Shown in pieces: positions 1,474-44,222 of a stretch of 44,413 nucleotides of DNA. Each line of letters begins with the position of its first letter. Position 1 is the stretch's first letter. A program made the translations under genes and the position numbers. The stretch lies in IMG/VR virus record IMGVR_UViG_3300045107_000290, positions 1 to 44,413 of that record. One strand, 5' to 3'. The notes under the pieces were generated by a model. That model did no database searches. It was not told the DNA's origin and saw nothing but the letters and a program-made list of their open reading frames with translations. The stretch comes from a virus.

Positions 1474-1479
1474 GCGGTG

Positions 1480-4400
1480 ATGGCGGGGGCGGCGGAGCAA
1501 CTGCAGGGAATCCTCGATCCGCTCGACGTGTCGCAGCCGATGAAGGCGCAGGCCTGGGACCTGTTCCAGGCTGCACGCGATCCGGAAGATTTCCGGCGGC
1601 GCTTCGATCCGCTGCCGATTCCGAAGGAGGCGAAGGCGGCGCTGTGGGAGGCGAAGTTCGGCGGCGCGGCGCGGGAGCGGAGCGAGGCGCTGGTGAGGCT
1701 GAAGACGCCGGCGCCGGAGAACCTGCCGACGCAGGCGGAGTTCGACGCGGCGCACCGGGCGCACGTAGCGGGCGTCCTGGACGGGCTGACGGGGCCGCTT
1801 CCGGGGACGGAGCTGACCGGGCTTCCGGGCGTGCCGCTCACCCGGCCGACGCCAGTGGACGTGCAGCGTATGGAGCGCTCGGGCCGATCGTTCCAGCCGC
1901 TGGCGCAACGCCTGGGCGGATCCGTGCCGGGGCAGCCGAATCTGTCGGACTATTCGCAGCTGCTCGCAGCGGTCGGGCTGAATGGCCTGGCGGTGGGCGG
2001 GGCGACGGCTTCCTCTCCGCTGACGCGGCGCGCGCTGGCCGGACTGCAATCCCTGCTGGGCGCTTACTTCGGCTACGAGATGGGCCGCGGCACGCTCGAA
2101 TCCGGCAAGAAAGGCTTTGAGGCGGCGCAGGAGGGCGATTACCCGGAGGCGCTGCGCCAGCTCGGAAACGCCGGTCTGGAAGGCTTCTTCGCCTACCATG
2201 GCGGGAAATCGGCGCTGCAGCGCAGCCTCGTGTTCGAACCGTGGGAGGCATACGCCGAGCGCCAGGCCTCCGTGCAGCCGTCTGCAAGGGACGCCGGCGT
2301 GCGCGGCGCGCCCGTGGAACCCGAAGTGATGCCCGGCGGGCGGGGGGCGCGGGTGAAGCGCCCGCGGCCGGCTCCCGCCGCTCCCATAGAAACCCCCGAA
2401 GAGGTCACCCCTTCCTCTGCATCTCCCCAGGACACCTCGCGACCGTCCGCTCTACCTGCCCTGCCGACCTCGGGGCGGGCGGCCGCTGCTTCCTCCCGGA
2501 AGCTGCCGCGCGACCTGGCGGGCGCGAAGCCGCGCTACGCGATGGGCGGCGACCAGTACGACGTGACATTCGAGGACGACCTCGACCGCGCGGCGTACAT
2601 CACCACGCAGCCGAAGCCGTCGAAGCGCGACGCGGACTTCGTGCAGTTCGTGATGGACGAAACCGGGCTCGATGAGAACGACGTGCGCGCTCTCGGGGGG
2701 CTGGTGCGCACGCAACTGAAGGGCGAGGCGCGGCGCAAGAAGGGCGGCGGGCTCCTTGAAGTGGGCCCGATCCTGCGCCCGTACCTGGAGCGGCAACAGG
2801 CCGGTGCGGCGGCGCCGGCGGAACCGGAGCCGCAGCAAGTCCAGCCCGAGGCGGCGGCGCCGAAGGACGCGCAGGCTGCCATCACCGACTTCAACAAGAA
2901 AGCTTCGGCCGAACTCGCGCCGGCGGAGCAGGCGGTGGCGGACGGGCGCCGGTTGTCGGCGCGCACGATCGACCGCGTGGTGGCGAAGCTCGAAGACTCG
3001 GAAGGGACGCTGGCCGACGCGCTGCGGGGAGACAAGGGCGGCGAGATCGTGAACAGCCTGGTCGAGGACGGGGTGATCACGACGCAGGAAAAGAACGCCT
3101 ACGTCGACGAGCGGCAGCAGCTAACGACGGAGGGGAAGGCGCGGATCGCGAAGGCGCTGGTGGGCCGGATGTTCAACACTCCGGCGCAGCTCACTGGCAC
3201 GCCGCCGGAGATGCGCAACAAGCTGGAGCGGATCGCGCCGCACGTTCTGCGCGTGGAAGGTCGCGCAGGCTGGTCGATCACGCAGGCGACGCGGGAGGCG
3301 CTGGACCTGCTCGAGGACATGCGGGCGCACGGCGGCCGAAACGTGCTCGACGTGGCGCGGCAGGGAGTGATCGGCGGCGGGGGCAAGCGATATTCGCCGC
3401 AAGCGATCGAGATTGCACGGACGCTGCAGCAGGGGCCGGTGAAGGCCGCGGCGGCGTTCCGGCGGTACGCAAACGATGAGGCGCTGAGCCGGGAAGGGGC
3501 GCAAGAGGCGTTCTTCGAGCCGCCGACTCAGCAGGAGGCCTTCGCCGATGCGTTCGGGGATGGCGCGGCCGAGCCGATCAAGGGCAAGGCATTCGAGCCG
3601 GCCGAGGAGCTGCGTGTGCCGAAGCTCCGCGATCACTTGGAAGCGGGAAGCACGGAGGAGTTTTTCCACCGGATTGACGCAAAATACGAAGCACTGCTGC
3701 GCGGCGAGCCAGGCCACGTGTACGTTAATCCGCCAGCGCACGCGTTGATCGTCGCGGTCGGGCTGGAACCGTTCGAAGGTCTCACCCTTGGGGCAGAGGA
3801 GAGCCGGCGGCTGTACCACAACCTCGGCGCGATGGCGGCGGTTGAGCGGGATCCCGAGCTGGCGGCCGGCATTGAACGTCTACGGGCGGCGATGCGGGAC
3901 GCGCGCCGGGAAACCCGTGTGCTGACCTTCGTGCTGGCGGCCGGGCCTGGTGCGAGGCGTCGAACGATGCGGCAAGCGCGCCGGGAGGAGGCGTTTCACC
4001 GCCAGCAGATCCTTCGCAACCAGGGGCACGTGCTGGCCCGGCACGTCAATCCGCTCCGGATGCTGGCGGTTCCCGAAATCCGGAAGGCATATGCCGCGAC
4101 GCGCAAGCTGCGGGAAGTCGAAGGGCAGACGGCGTTCCTCGAGATGGGCGCGATCCTGGCGACGGGCCAATGGCCGGATCTGGGTCTGACGCAGGCGGAG
4201 GCCGAAACGGCGCTTTACCACTATCTGGCCGAACTGGAGCGGATGCATGGCAAGCAAGCATCGGGTATCATCGATTACGTCGAGCCAGTTTTAAGGAGGT
4301 CCCTTGCCAGTCGACGACAAGCAAGCAGAGCAATGGATCAAAGAGCGGTACGCCGGCGTGCTGCCGGCGAAGGAATCCGCCCTGGACCAGGAGGTCCGGG

Positions 4401-6750
4401 AAGCCAAGGCAAATTTCGGAGCCCTGCTCGAGGCCGCGAAGAAGGGCCGCGCGGCGTTCCACGAGAAGTTCAACGAAATCTTTCCGCCGGAGATCTCTTC
4501 GCGTCCGAAGAAGTAGCCGCAAGCCAGGAGGCTGCGGCACACGACGAGGCCCGCCTGCTGGGCGAGCGCCTGACGGCGCAATTTAAGTCCGGCATGGCGA
4601 AGCGGCCGCCGAAGCGGGGCGCGCCGGAAGAAACACAGACCAGCCTGTTCGAAGAGACGCCGGAGAAGGCGCAGCCTTCCCTGTTCGACGAGCTGCTACG
4701 CGACACGCGCGGCGGCGGGCCGCCGATCGACGTGGAGGCAGCGAAAGAACGGGTGCGCGAGGGCGCGCGCGTGGTGCGCGATTTCTTCCTCCCCGGCGGC
4801 GAGCTGCTCGCGCAGCAGGGCCAGGCCGGGCGGCAGATCAAAAAGCTGATCGACACCGCATTCGACCGCGGCGAGCTGGCGGCCGGCAAGCGCGTCGTCC
4901 GGCTCCTGGATGCGGGCGTGCACAAGCTCGACCGGGCAGAACGCTGGGATCTGCTCGATGCGCTCGAAGGCCGCACCGAGGACGCGACGGAGCGGACCTG
5001 GGCCGTGCACGACGTGGTGCGGGCCGTTCTCGACGAGATGGCGACGCGGGCGGTGGACCTGGGAGTGAAGGTCCGGTACACGCGGACGGTCTGGCCTGGC
5101 GAGGATCCGGCCGGCTTGAACCAGCTACAGCGAGCGAGGCTGGCAGCCGGGCATCCGGTTCGAGTCCAGGGGAAGCGGGCGTTTCGGCCGCGCCGCGACT
5201 ATTTCCCTCACGTGATCCCGAATCCGGCGCAGCTTGAGAAGCCGATCGCCGGAAAAAACCAGCTACGGGCCGACGTAGTGGAAAACCTGGTGCGCCAGGG
5301 CGTGCGGCCGGACCGCGCGTCCGCCGAACGGATGGTGGACGGCTACGCGGAGTGGGTGAAGGACGGCGGCCGGAACGGGGAGCTGGAGCGGTTCCTGGTG
5401 GAGTCGGGCCAGGCCGCCGATTCCGCGGAGGCTCTCTGGAAGCTGCAGCGCTACCGCCAGCGGACGCTGAAGCGGGCGGGCTCGCTGGAATTCGCGCGGG
5501 AGATCGACCTGCCCTTCTACGATCCGGACCCGGCGCGTGTATTGCCGGGATGGGTGTCGAAGCAGTCGCTGCGCCTGGCGCAAGTCGAGGTCCTGGGGCA
5601 GGACAATCAGCGGATCAACCGGCTGGTGAAGCGCGTGGAGGACACGGGCGGGGACGCGGAGCTGGCGCGCCGGGCGGTGGATCAGATCCTGGAGATGGTG
5701 AACGAACCGGCAACGCCGGGCGCGCGCCTGGCCCGGGCGCTCCGGACGCTGAACGGCTTCAAGCTGGGCCTGTCGGCCGTGGCGAACGTGACGCAGGGGG
5801 CGCTGAATTCGCTGCTGGCATCGGATCTGACGTCGACGATCGCCGGCGTGCGGGGCGCGGCGACGAAAGAGGGGCGACGGATGGCGGCGGAAGCCGGCGC
5901 GGCGCTGGAGGCGGTGATCCAGGAATCCATGCGGCACGCGGGCCAGGACGGCGTAGCGCTGGCAACATTTCTGCGGGCCACGGGGTTCAGCGGGACGGAG
6001 CGGCTGAATCGCATCGTCGCGGCGAATGCCGGCGCGAAGTACGCCGAGCGGCTGCGGAATCGTCTCCAGTCGAAGCCGGGGGATGGGCGGGCGCGGGCGA
6101 TGCTTGAGGAGCTGGGTCTGGATCCGGATCACGTACAAGGGCCGATGGGGCCGGATGAGGTATTGGTGGCCGCAAAGCGGTTCAGCGATCTGACACAGTT
6201 TCGAAGCCGGCCGCAGGATATTCCGCTGTGGGCATCGACGCCGGCGGGACAGATGTTCTTCCAGTTCAAGAGCTACCTGTACGGGCAAACGCGCCTGGTG
6301 TACCGCGAGTTGGTGGGCGAGATGCGGGCGGGACGGTTCGGGCGCGGCCTTCGAGCGCTGCTGATCCTGGCGACGGTCTTTCCGCTGACCGGAAAAGCCG
6401 TGAAGGCGGTGCGGGAGTTCATCACGGGGCGGATGTTCCGCAAGGAAAAGAAGCGCAAGGCGCCGGCGGATCCGAAGCTTGAAGCACTGAAGGAATACCT
6501 GGACAGCGCGGCGCAGGTTGGCGCGGCGGGAGTACTCGGCGACCTGATGCAGTCCGGACGCTGGAGCCGCGGCGTGGAGTTCTTCGCGGGGCCGACGCTG
6601 GGAACGCTGGGCGAGACGGTGGACGCAGCGGCGAAGGGGGATAAGCGGGCGCTTCTGCGCCAGGCGCTGACGCCGCTGCCGGTAGGGCGGGAGCTGATCC
6701 TGGACGAGCTGGCGCCGCGGAAGCCGCGGAGCAAGAAGCGGGGGAACTGA
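1480..6750 (+). CDS. Giant polyvalent-type internal virion protein (~1756 aa)
   Basis: A single open frame runs from ATG 1480 (GTG 1477 is the alternative) to TGA 6748-6750. The N-terminus carries a hydrophobic Ala/Gly segment (residues ~160-200). It is followed by a Pro/Ala-rich linker (~265-340) and long helical regions. Around residue 830 a REEAFHRQQ stretch looks like a zincin helix that has lost its first His. The last ~300 residues, with KLGLSAVANVTQG and QMFFQFKSYLYGQT, recall the C-terminal modules of phage large polyvalent proteins (LPD38-like, from memory) and gp16-like ejection proteins. Residues ~939-1000 are Arg/Gly/Pro-rich and look translated out of frame, coinciding with a frame-2 ORF. 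The gene may therefore be two genes joined by an indel, or one gene with a nested gene. Confidence 0.75.
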   Translation: MAGAAEQLQGILDPLDVSQPMKAQAWDLFQAARDPEDFRRRFDPLPIPKEAKAALWEAKFGGAARERSEALVRLKTPAPENLPTQAEFDAAHRAHVAGVLDGLTGPLPGTELTGLPGVPLTRPTPVDVQRMERSGRSFQPLAQRLGGSVPGQPNLSDYSQLLAAVGLNGLAVGGATASSPLTRRALAGLQSLLGAYFGYEMGRGTLESGKKGFEAAQEGDYPEALRQLGNAGLEGFFAYHGGKSALQRSLVFEPWEAYAERQASVQPSARDAGVRGAPVEPEVMPGGRGARVKRPRPAPAAPIETPEEVTPSSASPQDTSRPSALPALPTSGRAAAASSRKLPRDLAGAKPRYAMGGDQYDVTFEDDLDRAAYITTQPKPSKRDADFVQFVMDETGLDENDVRALGGLVRTQLKGEARRKKGGGLLEVGPILRPYLERQQAGAAAPAEPEPQQVQPEAAAPKDAQAAITDFNKKASAELAPAEQAVADGRRLSARTIDRVVAKLEDSEGTLADALRGDKGGEIVNSLVEDGVITTQEKNAYVDERQQLTTEGKARIAKALVGRMFNTPAQLTGTPPEMRNKLERIAPHVLRVEGRAGWSITQATREALDLLEDMRAHGGRNVLDVARQGVIGGGGKRYSPQAIEIARTLQQGPVKAAAAFRRYANDEALSREGAQEAFFEPPTQQEAFADAFGDGAAEPIKGKAFEPAEELRVPKLRDHLEAGSTEEFFHRIDAKYEALLRGEPGHVYVNPPAHALIVAVGLEPFEGLTLGAEESRRLYHNLGAMAAVERDPELAAGIERLRAAMRDARRETRVLTFVLAAGPGARRRTMRQARREEAFHRQQILRNQGHVLARHVNPLRMLAVPEIRKAYAATRKLREVEGQTAFLEMGAILATGQWPDLGLTQAEAETALYHYLAELERMHGKQASGIIDYVEPVLRRSLASRRQASRAMDQRAVRRRAAGEGIRPGPGGPGSQGKFRSPARGREEGPRGVPREVQRNLSAGDLFASEEVAASQEAAAHDEARLLGERLTAQFKSGMAKRPPKRGAPEETQTSLFEETPEKAQPSLFDELLRDTRGGGPPIDVEAAKERVREGARVVRDFFLPGGELLAQQGQAGRQIKKLIDTAFDRGELAAGKRVVRLLDAGVHKLDRAERWDLLDALEGRTEDATERTWAVHDVVRAVLDEMATRAVDLGVKVRYTRTVWPGEDPAGLNQLQRARLAAGHPVRVQGKRAFRPRRDYFPHVIPNPAQLEKPIAGKNQLRADVVENLVRQGVRPDRASAERMVDGYAEWVKDGGRNGELERFLVESGQAADSAEALWKLQRYRQRTLKRAGSLEFAREIDLPFYDPDPARVLPGWVSKQSLRLAQVEVLGQDNQRINRLVKRVEDTGGDAELARRAVDQILEMVNEPATPGARLARALRTLNGFKLGLSAVANVTQGALNSLLASDLTSTIAGVRGAATKEGRRMAAEAGAALEAVIQESMRHAGQDGVALATFLRATGFSGTERLNRIVAANAGAKYAERLRNRLQSKPGDGRARAMLEELGLDPDHVQGPMGPDEVLVAAKRFSDLTQFRSRPQDIPLWASTPAGQMFFQFKSYLYGQTRLVYRELVGEMRAGRFGRGLRALLILATVFPLTGKAVKAVREFITGRMFRKEKKRKAPADPKLEALKEYLDSAAQVGAAGVLGDLMQSGRWSRGVEFFAGPTLGTLGETVDAAAKGDKRALLRQALTPLPVGRELILDELAPRKPRSKKRGN
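2273..2286. repeat. Dispersed 14-bp motif, TGCAGCCGTCTGCA
   Basis: One of six sites with perfect TGCAG and CTGCA arms around NCGN. It lies inside the giant polyvalent gene (codons for VQPSA). Confidence 0.6.
4304..4516 (+). CDS. Nested or hidden small gene inside the polyvalent frame, 70 aa
   Basis: A TTG start at 4304 sits behind TTTTAAGGAGGTCCC (4289-4303), one of the best ribosome binding sites in the window. The frame-2 product (starts MPVDDKQAEQWIKERYAG, ends ISSRPKK) has ordinary Lys/Glu/Ala composition, while the overlapping frame-1 product here is Arg/Gly/Pro-rich. A frame-2 TAA lies at 4292-4294, inside the binding site. Deleting one T from the T4 run (4289-4292) would put that TAA in the main frame. 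So either this is a true nested gene, or the upstream gene ends here and an indel fuses the frames. A downstream gene could then restart at ATG 4594. Function unknown. Confidence 0.6.
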   Translation: MPVDDKQAEQWIKERYAGVLPAKESALDQEVREAKANFGALLEAAKKGRAAFHEKFNEIFPPEISSRPKK

Positions 6751-7164: not shown

Positions 7165-7349
7165 AGCTGGAAGGCGTGATCGTCTGCGACCGGTACCACG
7201 ATTTCCTGGCGGAGACGCTGCCGCATCACCGGTCGATGTTCGACCGGCTGGCGGTGGTGACGTCATACGAGGACAGGTTCACGTGCGACGGCCGTCCGCG
7301 GCGGGTGCCGGAGGCCTGCGGGCCTGCCGGCGCCGGCGAATACGACTAG
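7161..7349 (+). pseudogene. Truncated glycosyltransferase N-terminus (62 aa)
   Basis: ATG 7161 follows a strong GGAGGAAAGC. The start GVIVCDRYHDFLAETLPHHR and then FDRLAVVTSYEDRFT match the beginning of a glycosyltransferase group that I recall as (V/I)VVC-NY-DFLAETLPxN...FDxxVVVTxxxD. The frame stops after 62 residues, before any DxD metal-binding motif, so no activity is expected. It ends in CTAG (7346-7349) shared with the stop of the convergent minus-strand gene. The simplest reading is that insertion of the minus-strand cassette or a deletion cut the gene. It may still be translated as a short protein. Confidence 0.5.
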
Positions 7350-7600
7350 GGCCGGCGCGCGGAAGCGGCGGCGCGGGCGATCGCGGATCGCTGGTCAGGC
7401 GTCAGCTTGTTCAGTCGGGCCAGGGCGGCGGTGCGGGCGATGGCGCTGCGCTCTTTCTTCGTCAGGTTACGGCGGCGCGCGACGGCGCCGGCGCGGGCAA
7501 TCTGGCTGCGCTCTTCAGCGTTGAGCGCGGCCGCTCGGGCGTATCCGCCCATGCGCCCGATCGCGGTGTAATCGCGCTCGGGGCGCTTGTTCTTCGGCAT
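7346..7600 (-). CDS. Ala/Arg-rich tandem-repeat small protein (84 aa), paralogue of the gene at 8880-9083
   Basis: Minus-strand ATG at 7600 with AGAGAAG eight bases upstream. The protein is built of about three copies of a ~22-residue unit of the form ARxxxLTxxERSxIARxAAxAR. The Leu-(S/T/N)-x-(E/D) pairs are spaced like short helix caps. It resembles small proteins often annotated as hypothetical in soil bacteria and is loosely like KGG-repeat proteins. No catalytic residues are seen. Expected to be basic and helical, possibly nucleic-acid binding (inference). It runs against the surrounding late genes, so it likely has its own promoter and may be a lysogeny-expressed moron. Confidence 0.7.
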   Translation of the reverse strand: MPKNKRPERDYTAIGRMGGYARAAALNAEERSQIARAGAVARRRNLTKKERSAIARTAALARLNKLTPDQRSAIARAAASARRP

Positions 7601-8872: not shown

Positions 8873-8892
8873 AAAGTTCTCAGGTTTTTTTG
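8873..8892. repeat. Leader repeat, copy 2
   Basis: Matches 8637-8656 at 19 of 20 positions. On the minus strand it overlaps the last codons of the repeat-protein gene (stop at 8880) and leads into the small lipoprotein gene. Confidence 0.5.
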
Positions 8893-9083
8893 CGCCAGCG
8901 GGCGGCGGCCGCCTTGCGGGCGATCTCGGCGCGGCGCTTGGCGGACAGGGACTGAGCGCGGGCGGCGCCGCCGGCCAAGCCGGCAGTGCGCGAGATCTCC
9001 GCCTTCTCTTCGGCACTCAGTTTCTCCGCACGGGCGAGGCCGCCGAGGCGGCCGAGGGCGACGGCGTGAGGATTCTTGGCCAT
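8880..9083 (-). CDS. Ala/Arg-rich repeat small protein (67 aa), paralogue of the gene at 7346-7600
   Basis: ATG at 9083 (MAKNPHAVALGRLGGLARAE) is preferred over the longer frame to 9122. Two to three units of the form LARAEKLSAEEKAEISRxA end in AAARWRKK. The unit matches the one in the 84-aa protein at 7346-7600, so the two are paralogues about 1.3 kb apart. I recall similar proteins as common unannotated genes in Acidobacteriota. Basic and helical, perhaps DNA-associated; not demonstrated. It is divergent from the early operon, the position a regulator of the 9142 promoter would take. Confidence 0.7.
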   Translation of the reverse strand: MAKNPHAVALGRLGGLARAEKLSAEEKAEISRTAGLAGGAARAQSLSAKRRAEIARKAAAARWRKKT

Positions 9084-9092
9084 CCTGACCGC

Positions 9093-9122
9093 AGCATAGC
9101 ATAGCGCCTTGACAATAATCAA
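9093..9122 (-). promoter_or_regulatory. Putative minus-strand promoter for the 9083 gene
   Basis: On the minus strand TTGATT (9122-9117), an 18-base spacer and TATGCT (9098-9093) precede the ATG at 9083. The -35 is imperfect and the leader would be only about ten bases, so this is tentative. Confidence 0.35.
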
Positions 9123-40501: not shown

Positions 40502-40672
40502 ATGGGGCGCAAGCGGAAGCCGGAGACGCCGGAGGATCGGGCGGCGCGCCTCGCCTACATGAGCCAGTGGCGGCAGGCGATGGAGGAATGGGAGCGGGAG
40601 CTGCAGAAGCGTGAGCGAGACCGTCTACAAACTGCAACCGAACCGGACGCTGCAGCTCCGCGGCTTCGATGA
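40502..40672 (+). CDS. Small basic helical protein, 56 aa
   Basis: ATG 40502, TGA 40670-40672, overlapping the next gene by 62 bases in another frame. Product MGRKRKPETPEDRAARLAYM and SQWRQAMEEWERELQKRERD is a basic helix. The overlap lowers confidence. Confidence 0.45.
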   Translation: MGRKRKPETPEDRAARLAYMSQWRQAMEEWERELQKRERDRLQTATEPDAAAPRLR

Positions 40673-43661
40673 TCGCGGGGCCGCGGCGGCGCTGACGCGG
40701 GCGACGGAAACCGGATTCACCATTTCCGGCGTGTTCCGGGATCCGGCCGACTTCTGCGTGCTGATGCTGTGGGACGCGGACTGCTTCTTCGAGCATCCGC
40801 GGCTAAAGCACCTGCCGGATTTCGACTTCGCCGGAATGGTTCTGAGCTTCGACGCGTCGTACAGCGGGCTGCAGCCGCTCGACAGCGTCAAGTTCCCGAC
40901 GATCGACAACACGTTTCTGGATGTGGTGACGGCGGCGGGCGCGACGGTCAAGGTGCCTCTGTTCGATCACGCGACGCTGGTAGAGGGCGGCTCTTCTTCA
41001 ACAAGCTTCGGGACGGCGCGCGCGAGCTTCGACGTGGTGGATGGTGGGATGGTGGCGGGGGACTCGCTGGCGTTGTGGTACCTGAACATCGCCTGGGAGT
41101 ACTCGGTGCCGGCTCTGCCGGGCACAGCGTCCGACGTGGCGGCGGCGATCGCGGCGCTGGTGAACGGGACGAGCTGGTCTGCGATCGGGCCGTCGCTGGC
41201 GGTGCGGGCCCGGGCCGTGAACGCGGCGGTGGAAGTGACGGCGGCACGCTACGGGACGGTGGATACGGCGGGCGCGGCGGTGACGCTGGCGAGCGGCATG
41301 GGCTTCCAGGGGCTGCGGGCCGGGGATACGCTCCTGATCGCCGGCGTCGAGCGCACGGTGCTGTCGGTCGAAAGCGCGCGGAGTCTGACGCTGACGGAGG
41401 ACCCGGGGAACCTCACGGGCGCGGCGTACCTCGCGGACCGCGGCGGCGTGGACGGCAACCACATCACGCTGTACACCACTCATTCGAGTGCCCGGCTGAC
41501 GGCGAGTCGCGACGTGCTGCCGCTGGCTGGCGGATCGGGGGCGACCTGGCGGGTGGAGCTGGATTTCACGGCGCTCGGGATCGACCAGGTCCGCCAGATG
41601 TGGCTGACGTTCGCGCCTGAGCTGGCGGCGGGCGCGGCATACCCGGACACGGAGTTTGCCGCCGTCTTCAGTAACTGGTCGGTGTATGACCCGCAAGGTA
41701 AGCGCGCGCTGAAGGTGGCGGGCCCGGGCTCGGTGCGGATCGAAGAGTCGGACTCCTGGTGCACGTACGCCGGAGCGAGCTGGCGGACGATGTACTCGAA
41801 CTGGGCGCTGTTCCAGCCGGCGGACGGGTTCTTTTCCAAGGGACGCGTGCGGCGGGCTTCGACTGTTGGCGATCGAGTGGTGGTGCGCTACGCCTGCGAC
41901 CACGTGCACGACCTCTACATCGGGACCAGCCTGCAGACGGACCGCGGGGCGTGGGGCGTTTCTCTCGACGGAGACGGGGAGACACGCCTCGATATGTATC
42001 TGAACCAGGCGGCGGGCCTGGCGGCGGTGACGGCGCGGCGGCTGGTGCGATCGCAGGTCGCGGCGGGCCAGCACACGGTGACGCTGACGGTACGCGCGCC
42101 GAACGCGGCGTCGAGCGGGAGCTATTGCTACTTCGACTTCGTGGAGGCGGCAGTGGCGTCGGACGTTCCGGCGGCGCTGCCAGCGCGGCCGGAGGTGTCG
42201 CCGGCGGTGGACTACGACACGGACCACGGCTACAAGGTGCCGCCGGCCCGGCTCATGTGGTGGATGGACCAGCTCGGCTTTGCGGCGCCGCTGAACGTAT
42301 ACGTTGGCGTGTTCTGGTGGAACCAGCGGAGGCGCAGCGGGGCGGCGCTGGCGCAGCTCCGGCTCGACTTCACGGGGACCTGGCTCGCGGGGCAGCAGGT
42401 GTTCCTCGCGATAGGGGCGCCGGACCTCTCGACTTCCACGACCATCGGCAAGACGGTCTTCGCGGGCGAGACGAGCGAGGGGATCGCGCGGGCGCTGGCC
42501 TACTTCATCAACGCGACGTTTACGGGCGTGTGGGCGGCGGCCGAAGGGGCGCGGCTGACGGTGACGGTGCGATCGCCGAACGCGGCGTACCGGTTCGGGC
42601 ATGCGGTGGCGATCGAGGGGACGGCGGACCTGGCCGATCCGGGGCGGGTGATAGAGACGGGGAACCTTCTCGACAATACGGCGGGCCTGTGGGTGGTGGA
42701 TCCCGCGCAGTCGCCGGCGCTGAACCGCGCCGCGCGGGACTGGCTGGCGGACCTGTGCGCGGAGTGCGCGGCGCGCGGGCGGGAGGTGACGCTCGCGTAT
42801 TCGATGGAGCTGCTCAACCCGCCGGACGATCCGCCGGCGGGGGAAGTGTGGGCGGCTCGGTTTCCGGACGGAACCGCGGTCCAGACGGCTACGGGCTTCG
42901 CCACGAACGTCACCACGCACTGCAGCTTCGTGTCGAAGATGCTGGCGTACCAGCAGCGGGTGTTCCGCGAGACGGCGGATCTTCAGGCCGCAGCGGGGCT
43001 GCCGGTGGTGTTGCAGTGCGGCGAGTTCCTCTGGTGGTTCTTCGCCGGGGGGATGGCGCCGCGGGGGATGGCGTACTACGACGCCGAGACGCAGGCGGCC
43101 GCGGCGCTGGCCCTGGGGCGGCCGCTGTTCGTATTTTCGACGCCGAACGACGATCTGGCCGGCCACGCGGCCGACGTCTCGTTTTTGCGCTCGCGGCTGA
43201 TCGACCACCTGCGCCTGATCCGGAGCTATGTGCGGATGTTCCATCCTTCGGCAGAAATCGAAATCCTGCTGCCGCTGGACGTGAACTACCCGGAGGTGTA
43301 CGGGCCGTTCGACCTGGGCGGGCGGCTGAACTACGCCGTCAACATTCCGGACGAGTTCCGGGACCCGGCTACGGCGCCGTTCGATCGGGTCAAGATGGAA
43401 GGCCTCGACTTCGGGGCGGGCTCGCGGGATCTGAACCGGGCGCGGCGCGGGGCGCGCTTTCCGTTCGCCGAGGGGAGCTGGCCGCGGTCGAAGTGCCGGT
43501 ACCTGATTGCGGTGTTCAACGCGGGCTGCCCGCGCGAGCTCGAAGAGCTGCAGACGCGTGCACAGGGCATCGGCTACCACTTCTGGGCGCACGATCACGT
43601 GCACCTGTTCGGGTGGGATCCGCGGCTGCCGGCGATCGCGCCCGGGGCGGACCTGGAGTAA
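40611..43661 (+). CDS. Large tail protein with a possible TIM-barrel/glycosidase end, 1016 aa
   Basis: GTG 40611. The N-terminal ~580 residues are beta-rich modules (FTISGVFRDPADFCVLMLWDAD; LFQPADGFFSKGRVRR). From ~590 to ~1000 the pattern turns to alternating helices and strands. Candidate acidic residues sit in YSMELLNPP (~730) and QCGEFLWWFF (~803), the spacing of acid/base and nucleophile in barrel glycosidases. It resembles phage tail proteins described as carrying TIM-barrel domains (from memory). It may bind and cut a host surface glycan. Catalysis is unproven. The last 30 residues (HFWAHDHVHLFGWDPRLP) are well conserved-looking. Confidence 0.6.
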   Translation: MSETVYKLQPNRTLQLRGFDDRGAAAALTRATETGFTISGVFRDPADFCVLMLWDADCFFEHPRLKHLPDFDFAGMVLSFDASYSGLQPLDSVKFPTIDNTFLDVVTAAGATVKVPLFDHATLVEGGSSSTSFGTARASFDVVDGGMVAGDSLALWYLNIAWEYSVPALPGTASDVAAAIAALVNGTSWSAIGPSLAVRARAVNAAVEVTAARYGTVDTAGAAVTLASGMGFQGLRAGDTLLIAGVERTVLSVESARSLTLTEDPGNLTGAAYLADRGGVDGNHITLYTTHSSARLTASRDVLPLAGGSGATWRVELDFTALGIDQVRQMWLTFAPELAAGAAYPDTEFAAVFSNWSVYDPQGKRALKVAGPGSVRIEESDSWCTYAGASWRTMYSNWALFQPADGFFSKGRVRRASTVGDRVVVRYACDHVHDLYIGTSLQTDRGAWGVSLDGDGETRLDMYLNQAAGLAAVTARRLVRSQVAAGQHTVTLTVRAPNAASSGSYCYFDFVEAAVASDVPAALPARPEVSPAVDYDTDHGYKVPPARLMWWMDQLGFAAPLNVYVGVFWWNQRRRSGAALAQLRLDFTGTWLAGQQVFLAIGAPDLSTSTTIGKTVFAGETSEGIARALAYFINATFTGVWAAAEGARLTVTVRSPNAAYRFGHAVAIEGTADLADPGRVIETGNLLDNTAGLWVVDPAQSPALNRAARDWLADLCAECAARGREVTLAYSMELLNPPDDPPAGEVWAARFPDGTAVQTATGFATNVTTHCSFVSKMLAYQQRVFRETADLQAAAGLPVVLQCGEFLWWFFAGGMAPRGMAYYDAETQAAAALALGRPLFVFSTPNDDLAGHAADVSFLRSRLIDHLRLIRSYVRMFHPSAEIEILLPLDVNYPEVYGPFDLGGRLNYAVNIPDEFRDPATAPFDRVKMEGLDFGAGSRDLNRARRGARFPFAEGSWPRSKCRYLIAVFNAGCPRELEELQTRAQGIGYHFWAHDHVHLFGWDPRLPAIAPGADLE

Positions 43662-43712
43662 GCCCGCAATTCCCGCTTAAGTGGCGATTTTCCAGTGAAA
43701 GGGAGCGGAGTT

Positions 43713-44222
43713 TTGTCTATTCGCGTGGAAAAGCCTTTCCCGGCCGCGGCGCTGCCGCGCGTGTGGCAGTGGATGAGCGACTTCCGGAGCCGCGTCGCGG
43801 ACGACTACGCGCCGCAGACGCTGGACGACTTCGTGGAGTGGAACCTGGCGCGGGCCCGGAAGGAGCACCAGTTCGCGGTCTATAACGGCGAGGAACTGTG
43901 CGGCCTAGTGACGGTAGAGCCGCAATCGCCGGTGGCGGCGGTGACGCACGCGCTGTTCCGCAAGGATTTCTGGGGTCGGGATACGACGGCGGCGGCGCTG
44001 CGCCTGGTGTACGCGGAGGCATTCGGGCCGCTGGGACTGCGGAAACTGGTCGGGCCGGTGCTGCGGGATAACCACTCGATCATTGCCCTGGCCATGATGC
44101 TCGGCGCGAAGAGAGAGGGGATGCTGCGGCAGCAGACCACGCGCGGCGGAAAGCCTGCGGACATGGTGCTGCTGGGGCTGTTGAAGGAGGACTTCGAACG
44201 ATGCAATTCGCAAGCGGCTTGA
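43713..44222 (+). CDS. GNAT-family N-acetyltransferase, ~169 aa
   Basis: TTG 43713 with AAAGGGAG seven bases upstream is preferred; GTG 43695 is the longer option. The GNAT core is visible: beta4 CGLVTVEPQ, then ALFRKDFWGRDTTAAALRLVYAEAF in the acetyl-CoA (Q/RxxGxG/A-type) position, and NHSIIALAMMLGAKREGML, the usual motif B end. It would move an acetyl group from acetyl-CoA to an amine of a host or virion protein or small molecule. Sits at the end of the tail operon; overlaps the start of the next gene by 22 bases. Confidence 0.75.
   Translation: MSIRVEKPFPAAALPRVWQWMSDFRSRVADDYAPQTLDDFVEWNLARARKEHQFAVYNGEELCGLVTVEPQSPVAAVTHALFRKDFWGRDTTAAALRLVYAEAFGPLGLRKLVGPVLRDNHSIIALAMMLGAKREGMLRQQTTRGGKPADMVLLGLLKEDFERCNSQAA

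Follow-up and report, generated by a model that had tools for sequence, protein, structure and literature searches.

A putative small gene nested out of frame within the linker of a giant phage gene of probable polyvalent type

Results

A small reading frame enclosed in a giant gene

The window, i.e. the whole stretch of 44,413 nucleotides analysed here, is a virus record with terminase, portal-like, head and tail genes. The giant gene stands at the record start and tail/internal-virion-like genes lie towards the end (stretches concerned, 1-411 and 40611-44222); judged from these gene positions, the record would probably be a late region that is cut or circularly permuted. Two small ORFs on the minus strand (7346-7600 and 8880-9122) have in common a repeated motif of the LSAEERSEIARKAAAARW kind. 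The subject of this work is a small ORF that lies entirely within the 1757-aa giant ORF, on the same strand and at an offset of +1 (Table 1). The parts of the giant before, within and after the nested ORF are called A (1477-4293), B and C, respectively, and B also denotes the nested gene.

Table 1. Positions of the nested gene, of landmarks in the giant gene and of additional +1 ORFs (window coordinates unless a locus is named)
Feature	Position	Strand	Evidence
Giant polyvalent-type gene (putative assignment), 1757 aa, frame 1, host of B	1477..6750	+	single ORF; homologous giants in six phages
EEAFH of the conserved [HE]ExxHxxQ motif, giant frame, upstream of linker	3985..3999	+	seven-giant alignment
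T4 run	4289-4292	+	sequence
TAA in nested frame; overlaps the ribosome binding site	4292..4294	+	sequence
AAGGAGGT, putative Shine-Dalgarno (SD) sequence of nested gene	4293..4300	+	single + strand copy; SD rank 1/37
Giant-frame linker over nested gene, Gly/Pro/Arg/Ser/Ala-rich, sequence unconserved, kept open	4294..4515	+	
Nested gene B (predicted), 70 aa, TTG start, frame +1 relative to giant	4304..4516	+	codon score; homologues in relatives
TTG start codon of B	4304-4306	+	sequence
EQWIKERY in nested protein; G021 counterpart QQWLRERY	4328..4351	+	pairwise alignment; list of starts
Conserved core of nested protein, NFGALLEAAKKGRAAFHEKFNEIFPPE	4412..4492	+	family alignments
TAG stop of B	4514-4516	+	sequence
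Giant frame resumes, DEARLLGERLTAQF, conserved block	4543..4584	+	alignment with relatives' DxAKLxxERLTAEF; codon scores
Extra +1 ORFs in relatives' giants	L044 reverse complement 5753-6091; L230 12180-12347; L223 reverse complement 739-933		codon scores

Start site and codon signal of the nested frame

The sequence TAAGGAGGT at 4292-4300, followed by TTG 4304 and a 70-aa frame running to 4516, was found exactly where the original prediction had placed it. The strong ribosome binding site claimed there was also borne out, as the 4304 start came first in anti-SD pairing among the giant gene's 37 out-of-frame starts; AAGGAGGT occurs only once on the plus strand of the 44.4 kb window. B thus has initiation signals of its own, against which it must be counted that the gap between AAGGAGGT and the start is short (3 nt) and that the start codon is TTG. 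If B is translated, its start must be 4304, because the shared EQWIKERY precedes GTG 4358, the one further start listed.

For scoring the three frames, the giant gene and the gene upstream of it served to train a codon model. Over the bases of B the log-odds were +46.2 for the nested frame, -43.0 for the giant frame and -62.3 for the third frame, in agreement with the earlier description of a coding-like small frame set against noise in the main frame. The best frame switch points were 4285 and 4495/4525, near both ends of B, and the codon score was 206.1 with two frame switches vs 106.5 without any.

The same architecture in related phages

Records of six uncultured phages (G011, G019, G021, G022, G023 and G027) were reached via relatives of the terminase. 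All six have a giant gene akin to that of the window, with a +1-frame ORF of 68-100 aa in the corresponding linker. The giants align partially, with one another or with that of the window, mostly at 20-57% identity.

A common rule was applied to 475 ORFs of at least 300 aa from the window and the fetched loci, with nested ORFs of at least 40 aa considered and near-identical ones counted once. Ten of the 1772 internal nested ORFs were coding-like by thresholds (nested score >5, main frame <2) that had been chosen, and slightly loosened, after the first hits were known. All ten were in the +1 frame, to which 1283 of the 1772 belong as background, and all ten were within the seven giants; seven of them are the gene at issue. 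The remaining three are coding-like +1 ORFs that sit in different linkers of the G011, G021 and G022 giants; the B profile did not match them.

The SD of the nested start ranked 1/37 in the window, 1/62 in G027, 2/90 in G021, 2/48 in G019, 9/200 in G011, 12/135 in G022 and 68/79 in G023 among the out-of-frame starts of the respective giant, ranks that are biased upward in that the start-choosing scan favoured SD-preceded starts, with little choice in the window. In G023 no SD was recognisable before the nested ORF. Giants of other lineages that carry the C domain had no nested ORF above threshold (long ORFs at the 52 loci examined out of 85, and the ORFs of the common-rule scan). In G024, of the same terminase group, the upstream gene is shared and is followed by a 481-aa gene where the giant would stand (L218 13003-14448), and no giant was seen in the fetched parts of the G020 and G028 records.

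Conservation of the nested protein and of the giant frame

Local alignments were compared with alignments of shuffled sequences for all 21 pairs of the seven phages. In the nested stretch the nested frame gave similarity at p<=0.01 for 14/21 pairs, as opposed to 1/21 in the giant frame and 1/21 in the third frame. The comparison with relatives, proposed as a check along with the original prediction, thus gave a conserved nested frame and an unconserved giant frame over the same bases. The result named there as speaking against a nested gene was that relatives conserve the frame-1 residues rather than the frame-2 protein, and the opposite was found. These counts argue that the nested protein is under selection.

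The similarity of B to its counterparts in G021, G022 and G019 was unequalled in 3000 shuffles (1 in 3001), the values for G027 and G011 were p=0.001 and 0.007, and the G023 protein was unlike B (p=0.17). When profiles were built with one member left out, 6 of the 7 nested proteins were recovered with E values from 8e-6 to 0.074, the weakest being that of G011 (0.074), and every recovered member outranked the non-members among 36,092 open frames (best non-member E 1.6). The G023 protein was not recovered by its leave-one-out profile. In a core alignment made by eye, mean identity was 0.28 in the nested, 0.14 in the giant and 0.19 in the third frame; this alignment was built on the nested frame, which it favours by construction. 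The match by eye of B with G011 N2 is by itself weakly supported (p=0.012) and became credible only once the other relatives were added.

Searches of viral contigs with A, B or C as single proteins returned no relatives. In the phage records searched, B and G011 N2 had no match at E<=1, and G011 N1 had one weak match (E 0.9). Over 48 records the nested-family profile gave six matches, all of them to sequences from which the profile was built, with no stand-alone or new member.

Could the nested frame be a relic, i.e. could the linker once have been a +1 part of the giant, displaced by two compensating indels, with no product made now? The same picture of a coding-like nested frame and a noisy giant frame would be expected. 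Against it stands sequence conservation, in most cases along with SD, start and stop, across the seven phages, the giants of which have diverged as described above; we regard a relic as very unlikely.

The giant frame across and around the linker

The giant frame is open over the nested ORF in all seven giants. Its linker has a Gly/Pro/Arg/Ser/Ala fraction of 0.65 in the window and 0.46-0.59 in the other giants, and is basic in four of the seven. From random synonymous versions of each nested ORF, the chance of an open giant frame given the nested protein was 0.088 for the window, 0.036 for G011, 0.090 for G027, 0.004 for G022, 0.011 for G023, 0.099 for G021 and 0.041 for G019. The product of the seven, about 5e-11, is overstated, since the candidates were sought inside giants that were already open. 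Conserved giant-frame blocks stop just before the nested ORF and restart just after it in the seven giants. Taking the flanking blocks together with the chances, read with this ascertainment in mind, we conclude that the outer frame appears to be under selection to stay open.

The motif upstream of the linker reads HExxH in two giants (HELIH, HEVHH) and EExxH in five, and the [HE]ExxHxxQ module may be zincin-peptidase-like. The block after the linker reads DxAxLxxERLTAxF in most giants. In the window, the giant frame has no ATG, GTG or TTG between the nested stop and 4594.

Neither piece of the window giant had a Pfam match above cut-off. The Pfam scan of relatives' giants covered G011, G019, G021, G022 and G027. 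It gave ddrB-ParB domains in G021 (1.1e-21), G027 (7.4e-21) and G022 (4.6e-17), PBECR1 in G021 just under the cut-off (1e-5), and strawberry-notch helicase domains in G011, with a methyltransferase domain below cut-off; G019 had no Pfam match. Relatives of the helicase were found on plasmids. According to passages of Iyer et al. (2017, PMC5512222), ddrB-ParB, PBECR1, methyltransferase and strawberry-notch helicase domains occur in polyvalent proteins, and zincin-like peptidases are thought to process the polyvalent chain. Judged by the domains of its relatives, the host gene would be a giant of the polyvalent type.

One gene or three?

The original prediction had left two readings side by side, that the gene is truly nested or that a frameshift has joined two genes. 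It had also noted that the TAA overlapping the SD would enter the giant frame if one T of the T4 run were removed, and the sequence agrees. In the form considered here, the fusion would mean that A, B and C are separate genes joined in the record by an extra T in that run, through a sequencing or a mutational frameshift. The position of the TAA, which overlaps the SD in the nested frame, fits this, as does Roseobacter phage CRP-810, in which the C domain is annotated as a gene of its own, gp34. On the other hand, a single ORF spans the linker in all seven related giants, and the block after B is conserved though it is without a start codon for about 80 bases.

Profiles of C found 10 viral loci and subsequently another 73 viral loci as well as 2 genome loci. 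C lies in a long ORF at the 52 of these 85 loci that were examined; among 38 ORFs uncut at the 5' side, with C at their end, 37 were of 2852-3381 aa and one of 1577 aa. As to CRP-810, its gp35 ends SALMSMLRGRKLDD... and its gp34 begins MLRGRKLDVKEEQ (L002 10684-10800), a repeat in another frame. Since relatives read through in one ORF, what separates the two seems to be a frameshift, either in the phage or in its record, and this pair itself resembles one giant gene broken in two. With the CRP-810 giant apparently broken and 37/38 uncut ORFs of at least 2852 aa, it is the rule that the C domain ends one very long ORF. A fusion is thus largely refuted already, and we consider it highly improbable; of the two original readings, that of a nested gene stands.

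Searches for a function of the nested protein

The nested family matched no Pfam or PHROGs family and no solved structure (best E 0.071, 0.12 and 0.23). Assignment of B as a SUKH-3 or Phd/YefM antitoxin was rejected, the matches (0.07-0.09) being below the curated cut-offs and about at chance level. A single-sequence AlphaFold model of B has three helices and is poor (mean pLDDT 72.9, pTM 0.37).

Discussion

In relatives, conservation is seen in the nested frame and in the giant-frame flanks, and the giant frame stays open, which argues for a real nested gene rather than an assembly error or a frameshift fusion. As far as sequence comparison can tell, 4304-4516 is very probably a genuine small protein gene, nested in the +1 frame within the linker of a giant phage gene of probable polyvalent type, from which a 70-aa product would be made. 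Within the giant mRNA, some ribosomes would initiate on their own at the strong SD (AAGGAGGT-CCC-TTG) and terminate at 4516, and other ribosomes would continue in the giant frame through the same bases. There the giant frame would yield a basic, Gly/Pro/Arg-rich flexible linker joining two conserved modules.

The start region can be read in two other ways. In a programmed double frameshift, ribosomes would pass from A to B (+1) and then from B to C (-1) to make one composite protein, and AGG AGG TCC CTT is indeed similar in spacing to the prfB +1 site. Programmed frameshifting was rejected on inspection: the target-frame stop, TAA 4292, blocks shifts before the SD, and no -1 slippery heptamer was seen by eye at the 3' switch, near 4495-4516. 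The start codons and differing spacings in relatives also speak against it, as does the open giant frame, which a composite would not need; such a shift seems extremely improbable. The SD, which sits at a module boundary, could alternatively be a pause site that assists folding of the giant at a domain border, with no separate protein. We give this hardly any credence, because it leaves the amino acid conservation and codon bias of the nested frame unexplained.

Returning to the nested gene, its fixed position beside the conserved upstream module favours a role as partner or regulator. The product may perhaps be a small helical protein that partners or regulates the giant, e.g. the zincin-like module just upstream; since both would come from the same mRNA, the two would then come together. 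We consider this assignment rather doubtful. It is a tentative possibility that the giant polyvalent genes of this lineage systematically house small +1 genes in their linkers, the products of which regulate, inhibit or chaperone the neighbouring module; this reading draws on ten candidates in seven giants, three of them unmatched by the B profile. If it is true, effector and partner would be locked on the same bases and inseparable by recombination.

Fully nested out-of-frame genes are known in phages, e.g. phiX174 E in D and lambda Rz1 in Rz. As in these pairs, B is a small gene on the same strand as a larger one, in another frame and with its own ribosome binding site. Unlike in these pairs, the outer gene is a giant of probable polyvalent type and is overlapped in a linker that is not conserved, and the nested frame has normal codon usage and a product that belongs to no family found. 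A second parallel is iddB of phage P1 (NC_005856), an annotated small gene of unknown function within a DdrB-type polyvalent gene; iddB is antisense to ddrB, whereas B is on the same strand as the giant. A relationship of B to IddB was rejected, as a profile search of the P1 stretch gave nothing better than E 2.8. In PMC9024508, iddB is named as left out of a figure.

The outer genes of the relatives resemble the polyvalent proteins described in passages of PMC5512222 in their ddrB-ParB, PBECR1, methyltransferase and strawberry-notch helicase domains and in the zincin-like motif. A term search of the main text of that paper gave no 'overlapping' and two instances of 'nested', at least one of them about a hairpin structure, and within the accessible parts of the open-licence literature we came across no account of polyvalent genes with other genes nested in them. 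As a rule, gene callers discard an ORF that is enclosed in a longer one, and the nested family would therefore be missed.

A conserved nested gene with normal codon usage, under an outer frame that is open but variable, would be a clean natural case in which to ask how one sequence can serve two frames. Such a gene also suggests that extra genes can be housed in the linkers of multidomain phage proteins.
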